A stretch of 26,682 bases of DNA from a virus: positions 1 through 26,682 of the IMG/VR virus record IMGVR_UViG_3300042294_001577. One strand, 5' to 3'. The notes below the pieces were generated by a model. The model saw only the letters and a program-made list of their open reading frames with translations. It was not told the origin of the DNA and made no database searches. The position numbers were made by a program, and so were the translations under genes. Below are positions 276 to 21,006 of this stretch, piece by piece (position 1 is the first letter of the stretch; the number at the start of each line of letters is the position of its first letter).

Positions 276-854
276 ATGAAAATAGAAAAAGTAAAAGTAT
301 CTGCGATAAAAAATAATCCTAAAAATCCAAGATTAATAAAGGATGATAAATTTTTTAAGCTTGTAAAATCAGTAAAGGAATTTCCTCAAATGCTGGAGTT
401 AAGACCAATAGTAGTAAATGAAGATATGATTGTGCTTGGAGGAAATATGAGATTAAAAGCTTGTATTGAAGCTGGTTTTAAAGAGGTTACAATTGTAAAA
501 GCAAAGGACTTAACTCTTGAACAGCAAAATGAATTTATAATTAAGGACAATGTAGGCTTCGGAGAGTGGGACTGGGATATGTTAGCAAACGAATGGAGTT
601 CAGAAGATTTAATGGAATGGGGACTTGATGTTTGGCAACAATCTGCAGAGGTTGATTATTCAATATTAGATGACGAAGACGTTTCTAACCAATTAAAAGA
701 AATGACTGATGGAGTTAAGAAAGCTATTCAGATTGAATTTGAAGCTGAACACTATGAAGAAGCCTATCAACTTGTTAAATTTTGGAGAGAACGAAACGCT
801 TACGTTGGCGGTATGATTATGGAATATTTGAAAGCTGAAAAGGAAAAGTTATGA
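276..854 (+). CDS. ParB/Srx-like nuclease-domain protein
   Basis: A 192-aa protein with a ParB/sulfiredoxin-like domain in the first 90 residues. The visible motifs are NPKNPR (14-19) and GGNMR (55-59), the two conserved boxes of ParB N-terminal domains. The rest is acidic and Trp-rich (95-120), followed by a helical tail (about 145-192) that resembles the end of phage ParB-methyltransferase fusions, but no methyltransferase domain is present. In phages such domains often sit beside terminases and DNA-modification enzymes, where they are thought to bind or nick DNA. It leads an operon and overlaps the FkbM gene by ATGA. The domain call is firm; the function is inferred. Confidence 0.8.
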   Translation: MKIEKVKVSAIKNNPKNPRLIKDDKFFKLVKSVKEFPQMLELRPIVVNEDMIVLGGNMRLKACIEAGFKEVTIVKAKDLTLEQQNEFIIKDNVGFGEWDWDMLANEWSSEDLMEWGLDVWQQSAEVDYSILDDEDVSNQLKEMTDGVKKAIQIEFEAEHYEEAYQLVKFWRERNAYVGGMIMEYLKAEKEKL

Positions 855-1549
855 AATTAAACAAAGCAGAAATAAAAGGAATTAAATTTTATTATCGTGA
901 TGGAATGTCAGATAAAAAAACATTTGACGAAGTTTTAGGTAATGAAGTTTATTTAAAAAAAGGAATGACAATAAAAGCTGGTGAAACGTGGATGGATTGC
1001 GGTGGAAATGTAGGGGCTTTTACTTTATTAGCTTGTTCAAAAGGTGCAAAGGTTACTGTTTACGAACCTGACCCATATAACTGTGAAATGATTAAAAAGA
1101 ATTTAGATTTAAATGGATTTGAAGCTACTATAAAACAAGCTGCATTAGTTCATAATGATACTAAAAAAATTATTTTATTTATAGGCAACAATGGCAATGT
1201 GTGGCGAAATTCAATAGTAAAGAAATGGAATAACAAAGGTATTAAAGTACCTTGTTTAAATTTTGAAGCTGAAGCTAAAAACTTCGATTGTTGCAAAATG
1301 GATATTGAAGGTGCTGAAATGTTAATCTTAGAAAATACAAATAAAGTATTTAAGAAATTAGTTTATGAATGGAGTTTTGATATTGATGACAGCCTTCCAC
1401 GTTTTTGGAATATAATTGAAAAACAACAAAAACAATATAACGATTTAAAAGACGTTGGTAATACAGGAAAGTTTAAAAGCCGTGATTATGATGTTTGGCA
1501 AAAAAGTTGGTTTCCTGCATGTACAAATGTATTCGCCTATAATAAATAA
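851..1549 (+). CDS. FkbM-family SAM-dependent methyltransferase
   Basis: A 232-aa class I methyltransferase. The SAM-binding motif I is DCGGNVGAFT (49-58), the acidic residue ending strand 2 is E72 in VYEPD, and the FkbM signature KMDIEGAE lies at 149-156. FkbM enzymes usually O-methylate hydroxyl groups on sugars or polyketides; I see no target-recognition domain or NPPY/PCQ motif of a DNA base methyltransferase. It overlaps the upstream ParB-like gene by ATGA and is followed 3 nt later by the dioxygenase gene. It may therefore methylate a hydroxyl made by the oxygenase or a sugar added later, which is inference. The family is clear; the substrate is unknown. Confidence 0.85.
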   Translation: MKLNKAEIKGIKFYYRDGMSDKKTFDEVLGNEVYLKKGMTIKAGETWMDCGGNVGAFTLLACSKGAKVTVYEPDPYNCEMIKKNLDLNGFEATIKQAALVHNDTKKIILFIGNNGNVWRNSIVKKWNNKGIKVPCLNFEAEAKNFDCCKMDIEGAEMLILENTNKVFKKLVYEWSFDIDDSLPRFWNIIEKQQKQYNDLKDVGNTGKFKSRDYDVWQKSWFPACTNVFAYNK

Positions 1550-1552
1550 ATT

Positions 1553-2353
1553 ATGAAACGAATTGATTTAATTAAAGTAGAGCATAATGTTAAGATAGGT
1601 GACAAGTGCGAATATAAAGAGCCGAATGTTACTGAGGACTGCATGTTTTATGTTGATGGCGAATTGATAGGATTTTATTTAACTAAGATGCCTGAAAAAA
1701 TGTGTAAGCTCGCAGACTTGGCAAATGCTGAATTTAGAAGTAAAAATGTACCTAAAAGCATGATGGCAAGAGCTGGTAAATTAAGGGCATTACAAGCTGG
1801 TAAAACAAAAGAAGAAGCTAATAAAATTGATGTTGAACAATTCTCTACTATATTAGGAAGCGTACCACCAAAAGCATTAATGCGAAGAGAATATGAAAAT
1901 AGAAGTTCTGTTCATGCAGTAAAATCAGCACAAACTTTTATTAAAGCAATGATTATTTTAGCAAAAGAAAGTGAGCAATTAATAAAGGAATTACTACCTA
2001 AACAATACGAACAGCAAATAGAATTATTTAATGATGTTCCTGAAAAATGGAGATTTGGTAATTTATTTACAAGTTCAATTTCAAATTATAATATATCAGC
2101 ACCTTTCCATCGTGATGCTGGTAATATAGTCGGAGCGGTTAATGTAATCATTTGCAAAAAGTTTAATTCTAAAGGTGGAGATTTACACGTTCCTGATTAC
2201 AACGCTACAATCGGACAGCAAGATAATTCTATTTTAGTTTATCCTGCATGGCGCAATGTTCATGGAGTTACTCCTATCGTACCAACACATGAAGGAGGTT
2301 ACAGAAATAGTTTAGTATTTTACCCACTAAAAGCATTTAAAGGATTAAAATAA
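1553..2353 (+). CDS. TET/JBP-like 2-oxoglutarate/Fe(II) dioxygenase
   Basis: A 266-aa protein whose C-terminal half (about 165-266) has the double-stranded beta-helix motifs of 2OG/Fe(II) oxygenases. The iron ligands would be H186 and D188 in HRDAGN, with H237 in WRNVHG. R251, in a GGYRNSLVFYP strand, would bind 2-oxoglutarate. HRDxxN is the form found in TET proteins (HRDIHN in human TET2), and the 51-residue spacing between the two His resembles JBP1. This family oxidises the methyl group of 5-methylcytosine or thymine in DNA. The N-terminal half is helical and Lys-rich, consistent with DNA contact. It follows an FkbM methyltransferase and precedes the terminase. The oxygenase fold is secure; TET/JBP membership is likely; the substrate is inferred. 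Confidence 0.75.
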   Translation: MKRIDLIKVEHNVKIGDKCEYKEPNVTEDCMFYVDGELIGFYLTKMPEKMCKLADLANAEFRSKNVPKSMMARAGKLRALQAGKTKEEANKIDVEQFSTILGSVPPKALMRREYENRSSVHAVKSAQTFIKAMIILAKESEQLIKELLPKQYEQQIELFNDVPEKWRFGNLFTSSISNYNISAPFHRDAGNIVGAVNVIICKKFNSKGGDLHVPDYNATIGQQDNSILVYPAWRNVHGVTPIVPTHEGGYRNSLVFYPLKAFKGLK

Positions 2354-2363
2354 AATTAAAATT

Positions 2364-2699
2364 ATGCCACGCAAAGGAGGAGTCCCAGAAAATCTAAAGC
2401 CTTTTAAAAAAGGAAATGATGAGCGCAGAAATATGAAAGGCGCACCAGTTAAAATACCAACATTAGAAATATTATTAGCGGAAGTATTGGGTGAAGAGAG
2501 AGAAGGAATCGTAGCAGCAAAAGCAATTTTATCAGCTTTAAGAAATAAAGCATTAAAAGGTGATACAAGAGCAGCAGAATTACTTTTAGATAGAGCTTAC
2601 GGTAAAGCAAAACAAACAATTGACCAAAATACTAATCTTCAAGCTTTAACAATTAATTTAATTAATCCTGAAGATATTAATAAATTAAATAATCTGTGA
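2364..2699 (+). CDS. terminase small subunit (DUF5681-like)
   Basis: A 111-aa basic protein immediately upstream of the large terminase. The N-terminus contains KPFKKGNDERRN (about 13-24) followed by a Gly and a Lys/Pro-rich stretch, the pattern of DUF5681 proteins found beside terminases. A helical segment (about 32-95) with a KALKGDTRAAELLLDRAYGK-type helix follows, as in small subunits that bind packaging sites. The role as DNA-recognition subunit of the packaging motor comes from family and position. The start ATG follows an AT-rich leader 10 nt after the dioxygenase gene, suggesting co-transcription. Confidence 0.75.
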   Translation: MPRKGGVPENLKPFKKGNDERRNMKGAPVKIPTLEILLAEVLGEEREGIVAAKAILSALRNKALKGDTRAAELLLDRAYGKAKQTIDQNTNLQALTINLINPEDINKLNNL

Positions 2700-2706
2700 T
2701 AAATCA

Positions 2707-3867
2707 GTGAATACTACTCACGTATTTAGTAAATTATTAAAATCAGATTCAAGACTTGTAATAAGTCAGGGTGGAACTTCATCCAGTAAAACATATTCAA
2801 CACTACAATTACTTTTCTTAATAGCCTTCAAAAAGCAAGGCACTCACATTTCAATAGTTAGTGAAACTTTGCCACATTTAAAAAGGGGTGCAATGCGTGA
2901 TTTTTTTAACATAATAAAAAAGGAAGGAATTTATACAGAAAAGAATCATAACAAGTCAGGAAACATTTATCATGTTGGCGATTCAATGATTGAATTTTTT
3001 AGTGCTGATAATGGGGACAAAGTAAGAGGTGCAAGACGTGATTACTTATTTATTAATGAGTGCAACAATGTAAGCTTTGAAACTTATAATCAATTAGAAG
3101 TAAGAACAAAGAACCAAATATATTTAGATTATAATCCTTCGCACGAATTTTGGGTGCATGAATACTTATTAAAGCCTGAAATTGAACACACGTTTATTAA
3201 ATCAACTTACAAAGACAATCCATACTTAGATGCAAACATAGTTAAGTCAATTGAAAGCCGAAGATACACCGACTTAAATTGGTGGCGAGTATTTGGAGAA
3301 GGTGAACTTGGATTTAGTGAAAGCTTAATTTTTACTCATTGGAGACAAACAAAGAATATTCCTGAAGGAAATGTGGCATACGGGCTTGACTTTGGTTATA
3401 ACCACCCGACTGCATTAGTTAAGGTAACTGAACAAGATGGAAAGTTTTATGCTGAACAATTGATTTATGAAAGTCATTTAACTAATCAACAATTAATTGA
3501 AAGGCTTAAACAATTAAATATTAATCGCACAGCAGAAATATTTGCGGACTATTCAAGACCTGAAAGCATACGTGAAATATATTTAGCTGGGTTTAATATA
3601 AAAGATGCTGTAAAGGATGTTAAAAAAGGAATTGATAGTGTTAAGTCAAAGGAACTTTATATTCATGAATCTTCTGTTGATTTAATTAAAGAATTACGTT
3701 CTTATTCATGGAAAAAAGACCGAAACGAAAAACTACTTGAAGAACCTATAAAAATAAATGATGATGCCTGTGATGCTTTAAGATATTGCATCCATACATG
3801 GAAAGCTCCACAAATTACATTTATGAAGCCGAAAATTACTAACTTTGGAAGCCGAAACAATTACTAA
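2707..3867 (+). CDS. terL: terminase large subunit (PBSX-type)
   Basis: A 386-aa packaging ATPase/nuclease. The Walker A-like loop is GGTSSSKT (22-29) and the Walker B is YLFINE (113-118) with E118 catalytic. The C-terminal RNase H-like nuclease shows D228 in YGLDFGYNHP, D281 in FADYSRPE and the acidic pair in NDDACDALRY (351-360). Order and length fit the PBSX/Terminase_3 class. The start must be the GTG at 2707, because the first in-frame Met lies after the Walker A motif. It pumps DNA into the prohead and cuts it. The last base overlaps the first base of the next gene. Confidence 0.95.
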   Translation: MNTTHVFSKLLKSDSRLVISQGGTSSSKTYSTLQLLFLIAFKKQGTHISIVSETLPHLKRGAMRDFFNIIKKEGIYTEKNHNKSGNIYHVGDSMIEFFSADNGDKVRGARRDYLFINECNNVSFETYNQLEVRTKNQIYLDYNPSHEFWVHEYLLKPEIEHTFIKSTYKDNPYLDANIVKSIESRRYTDLNWWRVFGEGELGFSESLIFTHWRQTKNIPEGNVAYGLDFGYNHPTALVKVTEQDGKFYAEQLIYESHLTNQQLIERLKQLNINRTAEIFADYSRPESIREIYLAGFNIKDAVKDVKKGIDSVKSKELYIHESSVDLIKELRSYSWKKDRNEKLLEEPIKINDDACDALRYCIHTWKAPQITFMKPKITNFGSRNNY

Positions 3868-4418
3868 TGATAAAAGCGGATATTAAACGAAAGGAATATA
3901 AAATTCCAACAAGTTGGGCGGATGTGCCTTATATTAAAGCAATTGAAGTAATAAAGATAAAAGAACCTGACTTAGCTTTATGTAAATTAATAGGAATTGA
4001 AATAGAAGAACTTAACAGCCTTCAAAATAAGTCAGTTGCTATTCTTTATAATTGCGTTCAATTTATTAGTGATGTTTCAATAATGGAATCAAATGAGCCA
4101 AAAGAAAAATACAAAGATTTTGACTATGGTTCTAAAAGTTATGGTGATACCGAAAAAGTAAGAAACATTATAAGCCAAAATTCAGATAAAAACTTTTTAG
4201 ATTTAGCACCTGAAATAATTAAGCACTTAACTGGTGACGATATAAGCAACGAACCATTTAGCGAAGTAATTGGAACAGTAGGTTTTTTTTTAAATCAATG
4301 GATGATTTCTATAAGCAATATTCAGAACTTAATGAAAGCAGTAGGGATGAAAAACAACTTATTGCAGGAATTGAAAGAATCGACCGATTCGGAAGCTTCG
4401 GTACTTACGTTGAATTAG
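3867..4418 (+). CDS. probable tail assembly chaperone, zero-frame (G-like) product
   Basis: A 183-aa, mainly helical acidic protein with no catalytic motif. The N-terminus (KEYKIPTSWADV, about 9-20) and a segment near 38-52 (LCKLIGIEIEELNSL) resemble the first ORF of tail assembly chaperones from Bacteroidetes phages. A second ORF in the -1 frame overlaps its 3' end and is entered at a canonical slippery run (4283-4292), as with lambda G/GT. The position right after terL, far from the tape measure gene, is unusual. Function is inferred from architecture; a head or neck protein remains possible. Confidence 0.6.
   Translation: MIKADIKRKEYKIPTSWADVPYIKAIEVIKIKEPDLALCKLIGIEIEELNSLQNKSVAILYNCVQFISDVSIMESNEPKEKYKDFDYGSKSYGDTEKVRNIISQNSDKNFLDLAPEIIKHLTGDDISNEPFSEVIGTVGFFLNQWMISISNIQNLMKAVGMKNNLLQELKESTDSEASVLTLN
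4283..4292 (+). promoter_or_regulatory. candidate -1 ribosomal frameshift site (T run ending TTA)
   Basis: Nine T followed by A, read in the zero frame as GGT TTT TTT TTA, offer both T_TTT_TTT and T_TTT_TTA slippery heptamers. A -1 slip continues as AAA TCA ATG GAT into the ORF ending at 4546, with no stop in between. The -1 frame is open from 4262. No stimulatory structure was computed. A homopolymer indel is the alternative explanation. Confidence 0.55.
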
Positions 4419-5156: not shown

Positions 5157-5686
5157 CTTTAAGCCAACAGGTTTTAATAGAACAATTTGCTCAAAAAGTT
5201 ATTACTGATTTAAGAATAGTTTTAAAAACAAAGCCTATTCCAAGAAAGTCGGTAAGATATGAGCAAGGCAAAAGAATTGAAAAAACTTTTTCAGCTCCAG
5301 TAAGTGCAAGTGGAAGGTTAGCAAATAGTTTACGTTATGAAATTACAGATACTCAATTAATAATTTGGGGTGAAGATTATATTTATTTTTCTATTTATGG
5401 AAGAGCGCCAACAACAAAAGCTGGTTCAGGAACTGTAAAAGATAAAATAAAACAATGGATTAAAGACAAAGGAATTACAAGTGATATTTCAGAAAATCAA
5501 TTAGCTTATTTAATTAGTCGCAAAATACATAGAGAAGGAAATTCAATTTACTTGTTTAGTGGCAAAAAGAATACAGGTTTATTAGATAATGTAATAACAA
5601 ATGAAATGATTAAGGACTTTAATGATAAATTTACAAAACAAATAGAAGCGGATATTGCAGCGGAATTTAAAAAGGACTTAGGATAA
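5150..5686 (+). CDS. HK97 gp10-like head-tail completion protein
   Basis: A 178-aa basic protein with the hallmarks of HK97-gp10-like minor head/tail completion proteins. SGRLANSLRYE lies at 54-64, WGEDYIYFSIYGRAPT at 73-88, and then an ALA/KWI-type helix (KDKIKQWIKDKGI, 97-109) and a Lys-rich helix near 119-129. Members sit at the portal-tail interface and close the DNA-filled head or join it to the tail. Its location between tail genes, not beside the portal, reflects the rearranged order here. It abuts the next gene without a gap. Confidence 0.7.
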   Translation: MLTLSQQVLIEQFAQKVITDLRIVLKTKPIPRKSVRYEQGKRIEKTFSAPVSASGRLANSLRYEITDTQLIIWGEDYIYFSIYGRAPTTKAGSGTVKDKIKQWIKDKGITSDISENQLAYLISRKIHREGNSIYLFSGKKNTGLLDNVITNEMIKDFNDKFTKQIEADIAAEFKKDLG

Positions 5687-6490
5687 ATGGCAACAAACGT
5701 ATATTTAACAGACGCACCTAATTATCTTTGGAATGCAGCATATTCCGATATTATTTTTTTATTTGATTTTAAGCAATACCAAGTATTTTCTGCAAGTGAA
5801 CAAATAGCATCAAGCGTTGGGACTGGAAAAACACAAATCAATCTTTATTATACTTGGGATATAAATCCTTCAAAAAACGAATACGTTTGGATTGACACAG
5901 GAATTTATGCAGGAAAGCATAGAGTTATAACATCAACAAATAATTCAGTTATAATTGATTTTCCTTTTGATGTTAATATAACAGGTGATGTATTCATAAA
6001 GTCGCTTAGATTGCCTCAATTTGAATTATACAAAGGTTTTAATACTGGTGAACAATTTGATGCATCCTTACCTTATACTTTAGTAACTTCATTTACTTAT
6101 ATATTCAATTCTAATTATCAATTAGAAATAAACATAAAAGGTATAGTACAAAAATGTTTTACTATTGAACCGCCAGTATTAACACAGGATTATGATTTTA
6201 GCGTATTTAATGCATTTCGCTTAGTTTGGGATGAGGAAATTACTGATTATGCTTTAGTTCTTAATTCAAGTATTTCAACAGATGAATTAAATGCTGTTTA
6301 TTTATCAAATGGTTTACCATTGACAAATGTAGATGAACAACTTTTATGGGGATGTGGAAACACTTTTTATACTATATTTGACGGTGGTTATCCTAAATTA
6401 AAAGCATTTAATGGTTATGACCAAGCGGTAGCAGGATTTAATAATGCATTTCAAACAAATCAATTTTCACAGGGTTTTGATATAAATTAA
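5687..6490 (+). CDS. hypothetical virion/tail protein (267 aa)
   Basis: A 267-aa protein made mostly of short beta strands rich in Tyr, Phe and Asn, typical of tail-tip or baseplate proteins, with no signal peptide or membrane segment. Notable parts are an N-terminal WNAAYSDIIFLFDFKQYQV-type segment (about 15-33) and a Gly-rich C-terminus (about 221-267). The gene starts directly after the preceding stop and lies in the tail block upstream of the tape measure gene. I cannot name the family. Confidence 0.6.
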   Translation: MATNVYLTDAPNYLWNAAYSDIIFLFDFKQYQVFSASEQIASSVGTGKTQINLYYTWDINPSKNEYVWIDTGIYAGKHRVITSTNNSVIIDFPFDVNITGDVFIKSLRLPQFELYKGFNTGEQFDASLPYTLVTSFTYIFNSNYQLEINIKGIVQKCFTIEPPVLTQDYDFSVFNAFRLVWDEEITDYALVLNSSISTDELNAVYLSNGLPLTNVDEQLLWGCGNTFYTIFDGGYPKLKAFNGYDQAVAGFNNAFQTNQFSQGFDIN

Positions 6491-16084: not shown

Positions 16085-16543
16085 ATGCCAGATAAAAGAC
16101 CTAATGAAAGTAGAGAAGATTTTTTAACTCGTTGTATGAGTGATTCAGAAATGAATAAAGAATTTCCTGATAATGAACAAAGATATGCTGTTTGCTTAAC
16201 AAAGGCTAAATTAAAAGAGGAATATTACGCACAAGAATCTTATAACGATTATCCTGATAGCGTTTCAAATAATGCTAAAAGAGGGATTGAATTAAATGAA
16301 GCTGTAAATAATAAATGTGCAACACAGGTTGGTAAGGTAAGGGCGCAACAATTAGCAAATAAAGAAAAAATAAGTATTGATACGATACAAAGAATGTACT
16401 CATATTTAAGTAGGGCAGAAGTTTATTATAATGAAAATGATACAAAGGCCTGTGGCACTATTTCATATTTATTATGGGGTGGAAAATCAGGTTTAAGTTG
16501 GAGCAAAAATAAATTAAAAGAATTAGATTTATTAGATGAATAG
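16085..16543 (+). CDS. capsid-associated domain protein (CATQVGKVRAQQLAN type)
   Basis: A 152-aa protein in two parts. The N-terminal part (residues 2-40) has a Cys pair in RCMSDSEMNKEFP and QRYAVC. The C-terminal domain (about 53-150) has YPDSVSNNAKRGIELNE, KCATQVGKVRAQQLANKEKIS and ACGTISYLLWGGKSGLSWSKNKL. From memory, very similar domains occur as extensions of phage prohead proteases in Bacteroidetes and other phages; the exact role is not known to me. It starts the unit after the terminator and overlaps the next gene by 8 nt. Confidence 0.6.
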   Translation: MPDKRPNESREDFLTRCMSDSEMNKEFPDNEQRYAVCLTKAKLKEEYYAQESYNDYPDSVSNNAKRGIELNEAVNNKCATQVGKVRAQQLANKEKISIDTIQRMYSYLSRAEVYYNENDTKACGTISYLLWGGKSGLSWSKNKLKELDLLDE

Positions 16544-17321
16544 TGAATTAATAAATAAAGTTAAATCAGTTTTAGATAATCCAAAACAAAGATTAAATGA
16601 ATTATTTGAATTATGTAAAAATTTATGCAATCATGCAGTGAATATAAATTGTTCATCATGCGTAACAGAGGGTGTTATGCTTTTGACAAATTGGATTAAA
16701 GAAAACAACATAAAATTGGAAGCTCAAAACTATTTTAGAAAAGCGGTAAATGGTGAATATGAATTTAAGCCACTTAATTTATTTGTTCAATACTACCAAC
16801 AAGATAATCCTGATAGACAAAAGGAAATTGATGCATGTTCTAAATTAAATCACTCTTTAAAGCATTTTAATAAGGTTTTTAGCTTAACAGAACGATTAAC
16901 ATATAAAAAGATATTTGAACTTACGAACGATTACGCGGATTGTATTAATGTAATAGCAAATAGTGATATTTATTTTAATGAAACAATTTTATTTTCTCGT
17001 TTTATGAGAGAAGATGACTGTTATGCTTTAAGTCGCTGGGATTACCAAGAAAATGGACTTGCTGTTTTATTTGATAGAAAAGATAGTCAGGATGCTTGGG
17101 TATTTAATGGAGCAGTAAAAAAAATACAAGATGGAAATTATAATTTAGGAACTGCTGGATGTGATAATAGAATTGCTTGGGAGTTAAAACAAGCTGGCTA
17201 TAATGTACTTAATCCTTCAAAAACAATACATTCAATTCATTTACATTTATCTAATCATAGAACATATAAATCAATAGATAGAATAAGTGAACCTTACCAT
17301 TTTATATTTCCTCATCACTAA
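16536..17321 (+). CDS. GT-A-like glycosyltransferase with N-terminal four-Cys module
   Basis: A 261-aa protein. Residues 78-261 carry a glycosyltransferase-like domain: NSDIYF (142-147) in the place of a DXD motif, a CYALSRWDY strand (162-170), SQDAWVFNG (184-192), GTAGCDNRIAWEL (205-217) and IHLHLSNHRTY (234-244). The N-terminal 75 residues form a separate helical module with Cys at 27, 31, 39 and 42 (CxxxC-x7-CxxC), a possible metal site. Donor and acceptor are unknown. It is translationally linked to both neighbours (8-nt overlap upstream, TAATG downstream). The domain call rests on motif order. Confidence 0.65.
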   Translation: MNSELINKVKSVLDNPKQRLNELFELCKNLCNHAVNINCSSCVTEGVMLLTNWIKENNIKLEAQNYFRKAVNGEYEFKPLNLFVQYYQQDNPDRQKEIDACSKLNHSLKHFNKVFSLTERLTYKKIFELTNDYADCINVIANSDIYFNETILFSRFMREDDCYALSRWDYQENGLAVLFDRKDSQDAWVFNGAVKKIQDGNYNLGTAGCDNRIAWELKQAGYNVLNPSKTIHSIHLHLSNHRTYKSIDRISEPYHFIFPHH

Positions 17322-18244
17322 TGAAATTATTACACATAGGACTTTGTGTTTCTGAAATAGAAAACGGATTTCAAAAAGCATTTAAAAATGTTTTAGGAAG
17401 TGAAAATTATTTTGAATTAAGTACAGGTGAACAGCATATAAATGTAAAGATTTTACAAAAGTTTAATGAATGTAAACCTGATATTGTATTTTTTCAAATA
17501 CAAGCTGAAAATATAGTAGCAAATCAAACATTTGATTATTTAAAAAGTAATGGCGCTTTTGTTATTAATTGGACTGGAGACAAAAGAAATAGTGTACCAC
17601 AATGGATGATTGATGCTGCACCTTTTGTTAGTTTAACAGCTTTTAGTAACATGGAAGATGTAAGGGAATTAAATAAATTAGGATATGACAGTAAATACTT
17701 GGAAATTGGTTATGATGAAAACATTTACAATAATTTTGGCGATGCTTATACTGATTATGAGGTATTGTTTATGGCTAATAATTATGGCGCTGGTTATTTT
17801 CCATTTAGTCAATTTAGAATTGAAATAGCAGAAAACTTAAAAAACAAATTAAGTTCTTTTGGTTTATTTGGTAGTGGTTGGTTAAAAGGAAATGGTAATG
17901 TTAATCACTCACAATATGAAGAAGCTAAATGGTATAGAGGATGTAAAATTGCAATTAATTGTAGCCATTATAATGTAGCTCGTTATAATTCAGATAGGCT
18001 TTTAAGAATATTAGGAAGTGGTGCTTTTTGTTTATCTTATAAGCATCCTGAAATGGAAGAGGATTATGAAAATTATAAGCATTTAGTTTATTTTGATTCA
18101 ATAGAAGATTTAAACAACAAGATTGATTACTATTTGCAAAATGAAGATGAAAGAAAACAAATTGCTTACAATGGACAACAATTAGTTTTAAATAGAAATA
18201 CATTTAAAAATCAAGTAGAAAATATAATAAAATTATCACAATGA
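17321..18244 (+). CDS. GT-B glycosyltransferase (CgeB/GT1-like)
   Basis: A 307-aa protein with a two-Rossmann GT-B architecture. The N-terminal half (about 1-135) holds KPDIVFFQIQ and NWTGDKRNSVP (83-93). The C-terminal half holds a donor-binding region with INCSHYN, RYNSDRLLRILGSGAFCLSY (221-240) and a glutamate-rich loop, as in CgeB/YkvP-like family 1 enzymes. It transfers a sugar from a nucleotide donor; substrate unknown. It is coupled by TAATG upstream and ATGA downstream within the glycan operon. Confidence 0.8.
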   Translation: MKLLHIGLCVSEIENGFQKAFKNVLGSENYFELSTGEQHINVKILQKFNECKPDIVFFQIQAENIVANQTFDYLKSNGAFVINWTGDKRNSVPQWMIDAAPFVSLTAFSNMEDVRELNKLGYDSKYLEIGYDENIYNNFGDAYTDYEVLFMANNYGAGYFPFSQFRIEIAENLKNKLSSFGLFGSGWLKGNGNVNHSQYEEAKWYRGCKIAINCSHYNVARYNSDRLLRILGSGAFCLSYKHPEMEEDYENYKHLVYFDSIEDLNNKIDYYLQNEDERKQIAYNGQQLVLNRNTFKNQVENIIKLSQ

Positions 18245-18981
18245 AAGTTTTAGGATTTATGACCATTCATTATGGTTTAGAATATTTAAAAGAAAGTTTA
18301 TTATCAATTAGAGACCATGTAGATGGAATGGTAATAAGTTATGTTCATAAACCTTCACATGGTTATAAAACTATTTTAGATTGCCCAGATAAAGCTGAAG
18401 ATATTAGAAAAGTTTGTGAAGAAACTTTAGGAAATAAATTAATATGGGATGAGGCTTCATTTTATGGGGCTGAATGGCAGCATAGAGAAGTAAGATATAA
18501 ATACTCACAGGGATTTGATTTAATACTAACAATTGATGCCGATGAGGTATTTGAGCCAACTGAAATAGAAATAGCTTTAAAATACGCTTATACAAATCCT
18601 GAAAGGTATTATGGAATAAAAGGTTATCTTAATTTTTGGAGGTCTTTTAATTATATTTGTTTAGATGGATTTAGACCAATAAGAATAGAAAATTTAAATA
18701 ATCATAATAATTTACAGAATATAAATTGCCCTTTAACAATTTATCATTTTAGCACAGCTCAAAGTAAAGCAATTATGGAATATAAATATTCATGCTTTGG
18801 ACACGCAAGTGAAATTAAAGCTGATTATTTAGAAAAGATATTTTATAAATGGACACCTGAAAACAATTTTGGTGATTTACATCCAGTTTCAATTAATCTT
18901 TGGAACGCTGTAAAATATAATAAAAATAATTTGCCTAACTTTATGCACTCACATCCAAACTTTAATAAATTATTAATATGA
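18241..18981 (+). CDS. GT2-like glycosyltransferase (GT-A fold)
   Basis: A 246-aa protein starting MKVLGFMTIHYGLEYLKESLLS, the usual beginning of GT-A family enzymes. The metal/nucleotide DXD motif is IDADEVF (98-104). A later H-containing segment (LTIYHFS, about 165-171, and the C-terminal HSHP) may complete the active site. It lacks transmembrane helices, so it is probably cytosolic. It overlaps the preceding CgeB-like gene by ATGA and is followed by a very small ORF also joined by ATGA. Sugar and acceptor cannot be read from the sequence. Confidence 0.75.
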   Translation: MKVLGFMTIHYGLEYLKESLLSIRDHVDGMVISYVHKPSHGYKTILDCPDKAEDIRKVCEETLGNKLIWDEASFYGAEWQHREVRYKYSQGFDLILTIDADEVFEPTEIEIALKYAYTNPERYYGIKGYLNFWRSFNYICLDGFRPIRIENLNNHNNLQNINCPLTIYHFSTAQSKAIMEYKYSCFGHASEIKADYLEKIFYKWTPENNFGDLHPVSINLWNAVKYNKNNLPNFMHSHPNFNKLLI

Positions 18982-19058
18982 TAGTTTATCATTTTTATGA
19001 TGGGATTTTTGAAGTTTGGAAATGTAAATTTTATACAATTGAATTATGCATGAATTAG
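18978..19058 (+). CDS. possible coupling micro-ORF (26 aa)
   Basis: A 26-codon ORF starts in an ATGA overlap with the preceding glycosyltransferase stop and ends inside the first codons of the next gene. The product is aromatic-rich and unremarkable. It would carry ribosomes across the 64-nt gap to ATG 19046, so its value may be as a translational bridge. It could equally be a chance ORF. Confidence 0.25.
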   Translation: MIVYHFYDGIFEVWKCKFYTIELCMN

Positions 19059-19657
19059 CAGCTGTTATAGTAGATACAAGAAGATTAAGTTTATATCAAG
19101 TAATTACAGAACATTTATTTTATTTACCTAAGTACACAAAGCTTTACGTATTTAGTTCTGAAGGTAATAGGCATTTACAAGAAATGCTTAACTGTGAATT
19201 TCACGTAGTAGAAATAAATGATATTAGAGGATATAATAAGCTTTTAAAATCAAAAAACTTTTGGAATAAAATTAAAGAAGAAAATATATTAATTTTTCAA
19301 GAAGATAGCAGACTATTAAGAGAAGGAATTGAAGATTTTTATGAATATGATTATGTTGGTGCTGCATGGGATTTTTATCCTTTTGTTGGTAATGGTGGTT
19401 TAAGTTTTAGACACAAATCAGCAATGTTAAAAGTTTTAGAAGTTTGCAATCCTGAAAATGATATTAATGAGGATGTTTACTTTGCGTGGGGATGTAATGT
19501 TTTAAAATTAAATTTAGCACCAGTTCATGTAGCAAATAAATTTAGCTGTGAAACTCAATTTAATTTAGGAACTTTAGGTTATCATGCAATAGAAAAATAT
19601 TTATCTTTAGAACAAGTAAATGAAATAAAAAAGCAATATGAATCAATTATTAATTAG
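19046..19657 (+). CDS. DUF5672-like glycosyltransferase
   Basis: A 203-aa protein matching the DUF5672 pattern: GYNKLLKSKNFWNKI (62-76), LIFQEDSRLLR (82-92), YDYVGAAWDF (101-110), VGNGGLSFRHKSAM (114-127) and NEDVYFAWG. This family is regarded as glycosyltransferase-like, with QEDS in place of the DXD motif. The order and spacing of these motifs are complete for a roughly 200-residue member, so it appears intact. It overlaps the next methyltransferase gene by 20 nt. Substrate unknown. Confidence 0.75.
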   Translation: MHELAAVIVDTRRLSLYQVITEHLFYLPKYTKLYVFSSEGNRHLQEMLNCEFHVVEINDIRGYNKLLKSKNFWNKIKEENILIFQEDSRLLREGIEDFYEYDYVGAAWDFYPFVGNGGLSFRHKSAMLKVLEVCNPENDINEDVYFAWGCNVLKLNLAPVHVANKFSCETQFNLGTLGYHAIEKYLSLEQVNEIKKQYESIIN

Positions 19658-20210
19658 AGACAATTTCCAACAAGCTTGTAGAACTCCAAGTGATATAAAT
19701 GAACATTTAGAAGTACTTTATGATTTAGCAAAAGAATGTTCACATATTACAGAAATGGGTGTTCGTTCTGTTGTAAGTACATGGGCTTTTATGTATAGAA
19801 ATCCAAGTGTTTTAGTTGGAATTGATTTACATGTTCATCCTAATATTGATGAGGCTTTAAAAGTTTATACTAATTGGAAATTTATTCAAGCTGATACGCT
19901 TAAAATTGAAATAGAGCCAACAGAATTACTTTTTATTGATACATTACATATTTACACTCAATTAAAAAAAGAATTGTTTAAACATGGGAAAAAGGCGAAA
20001 AAATATATTGTATTACATGATACAACTACTTACGGGAAAATTGATGAACCGACTGATTGGCAAACTCCTGAAATTATGCAAAACTATAAGCAAGAAGAAA
20101 AACAAGGTTTAATTCCAGCAATTGAAGAGTTTTTAAATGAAAATAAAGAATGGTATATTTACAGACAATATACAAATAATAATGGTTTAACTATTTTAAA
20201 AAGAATATGA
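19638..20210 (+). CDS. SAM-dependent methyltransferase (MTase_24/CmcI-like)
   Basis: A 190-aa class I methyltransferase-like protein. The SAM region is ITEMGVRSVVSTWAF (37-51) with E39 and a Gly-x-Arg loop. GIDLHVHP (61-68) supplies the acidic residue after strand 2, and LFIDTLHIYTQLKKEL (98-113) plus IVLHDTT (124-130) match the FIDGxHxY/xHD pattern of Methyltransf_24 and cephalosporin-hydroxylase-type enzymes. Such enzymes O-methylate sugars or related hydroxyls, fitting the surrounding glycosyltransferases. It overlaps both neighbours, by 20 nt upstream and by ATGA downstream. Confidence 0.75.
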   Translation: MNQLLIRDNFQQACRTPSDINEHLEVLYDLAKECSHITEMGVRSVVSTWAFMYRNPSVLVGIDLHVHPNIDEALKVYTNWKFIQADTLKIEIEPTELLFIDTLHIYTQLKKELFKHGKKAKKYIVLHDTTTYGKIDEPTDWQTPEIMQNYKQEEKQGLIPAIEEFLNENKEWYIYRQYTNNNGLTILKRI

Positions 20211-20539
20211 ATTTAAAATTTAGAATTAAGCAAGATTTTATTCATTGTGATATTATCACTAAGGATAAATCAGGAAATGATGTTTTAGTAAATCATTTAA
20301 ACTTTAATGATTATTTTGCTAACTTAATGTTTATTGCTGGGCAAAGTCATTTAATAGAATTGAATCCTTTATATGATGCACAATTACAGGAAGAAAAAAA
20401 AACTTTCGAGCAAATATCGGAAAATGTTATTGCATTAACTTACAATCCTCTTCAGATAGAAGAAAACAATTTAACAGAAATTCCAAAAGAGCAGGAATTA
20501 AAGCGCAAACGTGGAAGGCAACCGAAAGTGAAAATATAA
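20207..20539 (+). CDS. small protein, zero-frame partner of the GT25 frameshift
   Basis: A 110-aa protein coupled by ATGA to the methyltransferase gene. Residues 1-65 look like one small alpha/beta domain (KFRIKQDFIHCDIITKDK, then NDYFANLMFIAGQSHLIEL). The C-terminal 45 residues end in a basic RKRGRQP tail, reminiscent of an AT-hook but lacking the exact RGRP core. Its codons 63-65 (GAA AAA AAA) form a slippery run. The sequence after it is also read in the -1 frame as the N-terminus of a GT25 glycosyltransferase, so 20401-20539 appears to be dual-coding. I do not recognise the family. Confidence 0.6.
   Translation: MNLKFRIKQDFIHCDIITKDKSGNDVLVNHLNFNDYFANLMFIAGQSHLIELNPLYDAQLQEEKKTFEQISENVIALTYNPLQIEENNLTEIPKEQELKRKRGRQPKVKI
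20394..20402 (+). promoter_or_regulatory. candidate -1 frameshift/transcript-slippage site (A9)
   Basis: Nine consecutive A are read in the zero frame as GAA AAA AAA ACT, giving the canonical heptamer A_AAA_AAA (20395-20401). An AGGAAG purine stretch (20388-20393) lies just upstream, where an internal Shine-Dalgarno sequence can stimulate frameshifting. A weak bulged hairpin (20404-20424) lies just downstream. A -1 slip continues AAC TTT CGA into an open frame to 21006. RNA polymerase slippage or a sequencing indel could produce the same outcome. Confidence 0.55.
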
Positions 20540-21006
20540 AACATAATGGATTTTTATTGCCGACTGAAATAGCAACCCTTCGCAGTCACATGGCAATACT
20601 TCAGCACTCTTTGAATGAAAATTTGGAGAGTGTTTTTATTTTAGAAGATGACGTTGATTTTACAGAAGATTTTATTAATAAATTAAATGATTGTTTAAAA
20701 GAATTGCCTGAAGACTGGGATGGTATTCACTTAGGTGGTTATTCACCAAATGGAAGCACAGTTAATTATTCAATAATGTTAAATAAATGCTTTGCAAGTT
20801 GGGGTGGTTATGGTTACATTGTAAATAAAAAAGCTATTCCAATAATTTTAGAAACAATTATAAAAGAGGAAAAACAAATTGATACTTATATTGCAAGTTT
20901 AATGCCATCATTAAAATGGTTTAAAACAAAAGAAAAACTTGTTTTACATCCACCTAATCAAAGTACTATATTAAACAAGTGGGTTGATTATAAAGATTTA
21001 TATTAA
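20401..21006 (+). CDS. GT25-type glycosyltransferase, expressed in the -1 frame
   Basis: About 201 codons in the -1 frame relative to the preceding gene. The early part, CYCINLQSSSDRRKQF (from 20425), then GIKAQTWKATE and NGFLLPTEIATLRSHMAIL, is the classical N-terminus of family 25 glycosyltransferases. It is followed by VFILEDDVDF (LEDD at 20641-20652), the GGYGY region and a C-terminal NQSTI. The frame is open from 20377 but has no ATG, GTG or TTG before TTG 20557, which lies inside the domain and would delete the first strand. Expression as a fusion of about 266 aa through the A9 slip is therefore favoured. Alternatives are a non-canonical ATC/ATT start or a homopolymer error. Family 25 enzymes transfer galactose or related sugars. 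Confidence 0.65.
   Translation, partial: NFRANIGKCYCINLQSSSDRRKQFNRNSKRAGIKAQTWKATESENIKHNGFLLPTEIATLRSHMAILQHSLNENLESVFILEDDVDFTEDFINKLNDCLKELPEDWDGIHLGGYSPNGSTVNYSIMLNKCFASWGGYGYIVNKKAIPIILETIIKEEKQIDTYIASLMPSLKWFKTKEKLVLHPPNQSTILNKWVDYKDLY

Follow-up and report, generated by a model that had tools for sequence, protein, structure and literature searches.

A viral TET/JBP-family dioxygenase gene beside the terminase adjoins an exchangeable gene slot that here holds an FkbM-family methyltransferase

The window analysed here is a fragment of viral DNA of 26,682 nucleotides (positions 1 to 26,682 of IMG/VR record IMGVR_UViG_3300042294_001577), in which CpG is depleted (observed/expected 0.56) and GpC enriched (1.53). 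Near its start, the genes for a ParB-like protein, an FkbM-family methyltransferase, a TET-type dioxygenase, a candidate small terminase subunit and the large terminase subunit (TerL) follow one another in this order, overlapping or nearly touching. This operon is present in hundreds of viral contigs, and we found the same order in Prochlorococcus phage MED4-184 (P-HS2), whose TET and FkbM proteins are 49% and 56% identical to those of the window. The features are as follows:

276..854, + strand: ParB-like protein, 192 aa, with an exchangeable N-terminal ParB domain and a conserved C-terminal tail (about residues 145-192); PHROG ParB/nuclease families to 1e-24, PF02195 at 24.8 bits, slightly below the 26.3 cut-off
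851..1549, + strand: slot gene, FkbM-family SAM-dependent methyltransferase, 232 aa, its start codon overlapping the parB stop; PF05050 at 44.2 bits (cut-off 22.7), TIGR01444 at 55.7 bits (cut-off 37.7), model of class I methyltransferase fold with pLDDT 84.5
1553..2353, + strand: TET/JBP-family 2OG-Fe(II) dioxygenase, 266 aa, with nearly invariant catalytic residues
2108..2128, + strand: codons 186-192 (HRDAGNI) by translation, with metal-binding H186 and D188, and N191
2261..2263, + strand: codon of H237, third iron ligand, by translation
2303..2305, + strand: codon of R251, predicted ligand of the 2-oxoglutarate carboxylate, by translation
2327..2329, + strand: codon of L259, aligned with a histidine of TET2 and NgTet1
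2364..2699, + strand: small terminase subunit candidate, 111 aa, preceding terL; DUF5681 at 26.3 bits, slightly below the 27.5 cut-off; homologues lie downstream of TET in relatives
2707..3867, + strand: TerL; TIGR01547 at 109 bits against a cut-off of 105, and PF04466

A preliminary description of this DNA had placed a TET/JBP-like dioxygenase at 1553-2353, beside the terminase, and had proposed, among other checks, an HMM search against PF12851 and a structural comparison of TET/JBP with prolyl-hydroxylase folds. These two came out for the TET assignment, and the small terminase-like ORF and TerL bear out the position. Tet_JBP (PF12851) matched the ORF with 39.5 bits (E = 4.3e-10; cut-off 34.9), as the sole Pfam family reported. 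The window TET alone retrieved nothing useful from the PDB with phmmer; the profile search with its relatives (a profile of ten of them) put TET2 (6e-7), NgTet1 (0.002) and CMD1 (0.006) on top, with no other 2OG oxygenase among the matches. The AlphaFold2 model of the protein has a mean pLDDT of 94, and its top 26 Foldseek matches were all TET2, CcTet, NgTet1 or CMD1. By structural comparison the model scored Z 19.5 with TET2 (242 residues, 3.4 Å), 18.7 with NgTet1, 17.1 with CcTet and 16.8 with CMD1, whereas the non-TET 2OG oxygenases FTO, AlkB and PHD2 reached 14.8, about 13 and 12.9, respectively. This ranking, together with that of the profiles, rules out a prolyl hydroxylase or another non-DNA 2OG oxygenase. 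The suggestion that the N-terminal 160 residues match nothing and could be a DNA-binding part did not survive: residues 1-266 of the model align with TET2 and NgTet1, which makes the N-terminus a part of the catalytic fold, and a separate DNA-binding domain is ruled out because the model matches TET2 from residue 1. As judged from profiles and predicted structure, the ORF is thus a genuine TET-type enzyme with the TET catalytic fold across its entire length. It is under purifying selection (dN/dS about 0.04-0.08 against close relatives), and a search of bacterial genomes returned a single distant relative only. We also considered the name queuine tRNA-ribosyltransferase, given to such proteins by PHROG 6059 and RefSeq, and ruled it out by the TET fold and the lack of any such Pfam match; the TET protein of Mycobacterium phage LilMcDreamy (L084, 855-1787) bears the same label, which looks wrong.

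The residues named in the preliminary description (HRDAGN with H186 and D188, then H237 and R251) are all carried by this exact ORF, and the likeness that it saw to the HRDxxN motif of TET2 was recovered by the profile search, N191 aligning with the asparagine of the motif. Among 225 distinct relatives, H186 and R251 are kept in 224, and D188, H237, N178 and N191 in all. Like TET2, NgTet1, CcTet and CMD1, the window TET has the iron triad and the 2OG arginine in a catalytic fold that spans the chain; unlike them, it consists of 266 aa with no extra domain, and has a leucine at the position of the TET2/NgTet1 histidine. This residue, L259, eight positions past the 2OG arginine, aligns in HMMER alignments with TET2 H1904 and NgTet1 H297, which we take to contact the cytosine. 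The histidine of 5mC-type TETs is, thus, not present in the window TET, and leucine stands there in 222 of the 225 relatives. JBP1 and JBP2, which hydroxylate thymine for base J, belong to the same Pfam family, and there, too, another enzyme later decorates the hydroxymethyl base; the J-binding domain of JBP1 was not found in the window TET, where the TET fold fills the chain.

The gene translated immediately before TET passes both cut-offs of the FkbM methyltransferase family. The closest folds to its model are RNA methyltransferases, some of them methylating C5 of pyrimidines (uracil-C5 and m5C enzymes), but the fold search was uninformative as a guide to the acceptor, since these are generic class I methyltransferases; the family name and the class I fold leave the acceptor unfixed. 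In a 31-row alignment, the residues that never vary are those of the SAM loop and of the FkbM family motif K-x-D-I-E-G-A-E; C135 is the sole invariant cysteine. FkbM enzymes generally methylate small molecules and glycans. Accordingly, this one might be a passenger of the operon whose target is not DNA but a glycan, a small molecule, or a protein of the capsid or tail, and the window does hold glycosyltransferases between the capsid and portal genes (17321-21006, in a cluster spanning 16536-21006: Glyco_trans_1_2, a weak GT2, DUF5672 and a short GT25), to which we found no matches in the fetched flanks of relatives, which rarely extend that far. We consider such a role unlikely, however, because all 80 loci retrieved with the FkbM query carry a same-strand TET, directly adjacent in 79, and because the enzymes that replace FkbM at the same spot are DNA-modification enzymes. 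The window protein differs from the FkbM family at large in belonging to a phage subfamily that, in the loci sampled, occurs only alongside TET and nearly always with ParB. Among the open-licence papers searched, we found none linking FkbM to phage DNA modification.

The gap between parB and TET is an exchangeable gene slot that has been swapped repeatedly between phages. The earlier reading of the locus was right on the TET family and missed both the slot and the methyltransferase. By profile-based labels, the slot of relatives whose TET and ParB closely resemble those of the window holds FkbM, the glycosyltransferase TAGT, a GT-like protein of 301 aa (a label of ours; no Pfam family matches it above cut-off), or a set of kinase and amino-acid-transferase genes. 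A census seeded with the window TET gave 73 loci having ParB and TET: 34 with TAGT and one more with TAGT and an extra ORF, 29 with FkbM, 3 with the GT-like protein, 5 with kinase sets and 1 empty, so that TAGT and FkbM are about equally frequent and the methyltransferase fills the slot in some 40% of the close relatives sampled. Three of the kinase sets include GATase, GNAT and an ADDT-type ORF, one includes FkbM, ADDT and an FAD enzyme, and one a 360-aa ORF. Seeding with the MED4 TET gave 60 FkbM, 5 TAGT and 6 empty slots. PF20691 ('TET-Associated Glycosyltransferase') was above cut-off in all six slot glycosyltransferases scanned, and Pfam names ADDT 'Amino acid:DNA transferase'. In a phylogeny of 115 TET proteins, the slot label must have changed at least 21 times; if only well supported branches are counted, 10 changes are still required for FkbM. 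The exchange is sharp: loci L025 (FkbM) and L027 (TAGT) have collinear flanks of 84-89% identical DNA and TETs that are 97% identical, and their homology ends at the last base of parB and restarts at the first base of TET; the equivalent exchange with kinase sets is seen in L055/L066 and L066/L077, with boundaries within about 15 bases. Across 36 long records, 31 carry FkbM without TAGT above cut-off, 5 TAGT without FkbM and none both, which, as the records were picked by slot type, shows only that the other enzyme does not lie elsewhere in the record. In L067 and L149, FkbM shares the space between parB and TET with ADDT, an FAD enzyme and a kinase, and FkbM is, thus, not always the sole decoration. 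In a few loci (L195, L213, L215, L216 and L032) the slot is empty and ParB directly adjoins TET; these would be natural 'plain hydroxymethyl' controls.

By family, TAGT adds a sugar, and kinase and transferase together build amino-acid or polyamine side chains. The neighbouring genes (TAGT, the amino acid:DNA transferase and the kinases in the operons of relatives) therefore argue strongly that TET acts on phage DNA, in agreement with the earlier claim that the phage oxidizes bases of its own genome, and we regard a DNA pyrimidine as the very probable substrate. Since the enzymes that take the place of FkbM belong to families that work on hydroxymethyl pyrimidines in DNA, it is simplest to suppose that FkbM likewise works on what TET produces, to which we give even odds. 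PMC6449724 describes the route to such side chains by way of 5hmdU.

The order of the two reactions could also be the reverse, FkbM being an unusual base methyltransferase that methylates DNA and so supplies the substrate that TET oxidizes, with no further decoration. The place of a SAM methyltransferase right before TET would fit this, as would its RNA-methyltransferase-like fold and the lack of the C5-methyltransferase family PF00145 in most FkbM-type records. However, PF00145 does not match the FkbM protein at E up to 1, and the invariant positions described above are those of the SAM loop and the FkbM motif, with a single invariant cysteine. Moreover, three of the five TAGT-type records scanned also lack a C5-methyltransferase, and loci with a 97% identical TET have the glycosyltransferase and no FkbM. 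Overall, 41 of the 54 records, which are mostly fragments, lack PF00145, among them all five records of cultured phages, and the remaining 13 gave matches, some of them partial; thus neither kind of locus, with FkbM or with TAGT, usually comes with a known C5-methyltransferase. There was no match in MED4-184 (38.3 kb), nor among the Pfam-scanned portion of the ORFs of the 26.7 kb window. Because TAGT loci with a near-identical TET manage without FkbM, and because loci of both types mostly lack a C5-methyltransferase, we find it improbable that FkbM is the supplier. Another candidate source of a hydroxymethyl base, a hydroxymethylase of the thymidylate-synthase family (PF00303), was set aside, being present in just 1 of 30 records.

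The absence of a C5-methyltransferase from most records and the leucine at the TET2 H1904 position lead us to lean slightly towards thymine rather than 5mC as the substrate, or towards an altered base pocket. Both arguments are weak, because the host may supply 5mC and because most records are fragments. If host-made 5mC were the substrate, TET might serve mainly to undo or diversify it on phage DNA, an oxidation that would counter restriction and stop at 5-hydroxymethylcytosine. The closest folds are, indeed, 5mC dioxygenases, N191 matches the TET2 motif asparagine, and some cassettes lack a slot gene. Most cassettes, however, include decorating enzymes, as expected if the end product is hypermodified, and the histidine common to TET2 and NgTet1 is replaced in the window TET, so that we judge this end point quite unlikely, more so than either alternative role of FkbM.

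The cassette keeps its place before the terminase. A large ORF begins 318-1120 bases past TET in all 57 testable close relatives, and 54 of these ORFs group with the window TerL. Identities of 70-90% for TET and ParB often go with a TerL that is only 20-45% identical or unrecognizable; the cassette has therefore moved from one packaging module to another and kept its position. The ParB-like protein is itself mosaic. In distant members its N-terminal domain has 16-25% identity to that of the window, whereas the tail (the last 48 residues) is 77-96% identical in eleven of them; seven chimaeras (L021, L029, L031, L039, L040, L057 and L067) combine an N-terminal identity of 16-20% with a tail identity of 83-96%. 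Since the N-terminal domain is replaced in several loci (16-22% identity) while the last 48 residues persist, the shared cassette starts inside the parB gene. The tail may dock to TET or to DNA.

Taken together, we propose, with a probability of about 0.55, that positions 276-3867 form a DNA-hypermodification operon, which lies immediately before the terminase genes and runs on into them, and in which an exchangeable enzyme decorates the TET product. TET would use Fe(II), 2-oxoglutarate and O2 to oxidize the methyl at C5 of a pyrimidine that is already part of the phage DNA, giving a 5-hydroxymethyl pyrimidine, and the enzyme of the slot, whichever it is, would decorate that hydroxymethyl group. 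In the window, FkbM with SAM is predicted to O-methylate it to a 5-methoxymethyl pyrimidine; an O-methyl ether would be natural for the family, and we infer it with moderate confidence. The ParB-like protein would probably bring the complex to DNA; its part as recruiter, and a link to packaging, are weak suggestions. The modified base would shield phage DNA against host nucleases. The full chemical proposal, in which FkbM caps the TET-made hydroxymethyl of a thymine-derived uracil or a cytosine as a methoxymethyl, and the replacement of a single gene swaps this cap for a sugar or an amino acid, is tentative, and somewhat less probable than not. To our knowledge, 5-methoxymethyl pyrimidine is undescribed as a DNA base. 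It is a clear prediction, checkable in cultured P-HS2/MED4-184 (Prochlorococcus MED4), and one that would bear on whether phage TETs use thymine or methylcytosine. If the slot works as proposed, phages change their DNA chemistry by replacing one gene and keeping the oxidase, and a DNA-specific O-methyltransferase would offer a tool to label or protect hydroxymethyl bases.

The phage TET pathway of Burke et al. (2021), as summarized in PMC12730594, comprises a C5-methyltransferase, TET and glycosyltransferases. To the extent of that summary, it resembles the pathway proposed for the window in coupling a phage TET/JBP enzyme with decorating enzymes to make hypermodified pyrimidines, and differs in that most records scanned here lack a C5-methyltransferase and that the proposed decorating gene of the window is FkbM. 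TAGT, which is absent from the window record, occupies in close relatives the identical slot but belongs to a glycosyltransferase family. In our view, phage TETs with glycosyltransferases are already known, and the exchange of the slot and its FkbM occupant are new.

Clusters of TET with aGPT, kinase and ParB were reportedly predicted by Iyer and colleagues in 2009 and 2013. Besides the window clade there is another, distant one, whose TETs come from actinobacteriophages and IMG/VR contigs and whose loci have the order ParB, TET, a group of aGPT/ADDT, FAD enzyme and kinase, and terminase. The actinobacteriophage cluster (Tonitrus, CloverMinnie, LilMcDreamy) is like the window in having ParB first, then TET and then the terminase, with decorating genes in the operon; in contrast, its TET is only about 25-27% identical and the decorating genes follow TET instead of lying between parB and TET. 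In LilMcDreamy, gp5 (3761-4333) is annotated as 'terminase small subunit', but its GQPGAGKST P-loop and its likeness to the operon kinases make this label look wrong. In locus L314, an actinophage-like cassette, the gene at 5181-6266, a homologue of LilMcDreamy gp4, encodes another 2OG-type enzyme (Asp_Arg_Hydrox, PF05118) next to TET.
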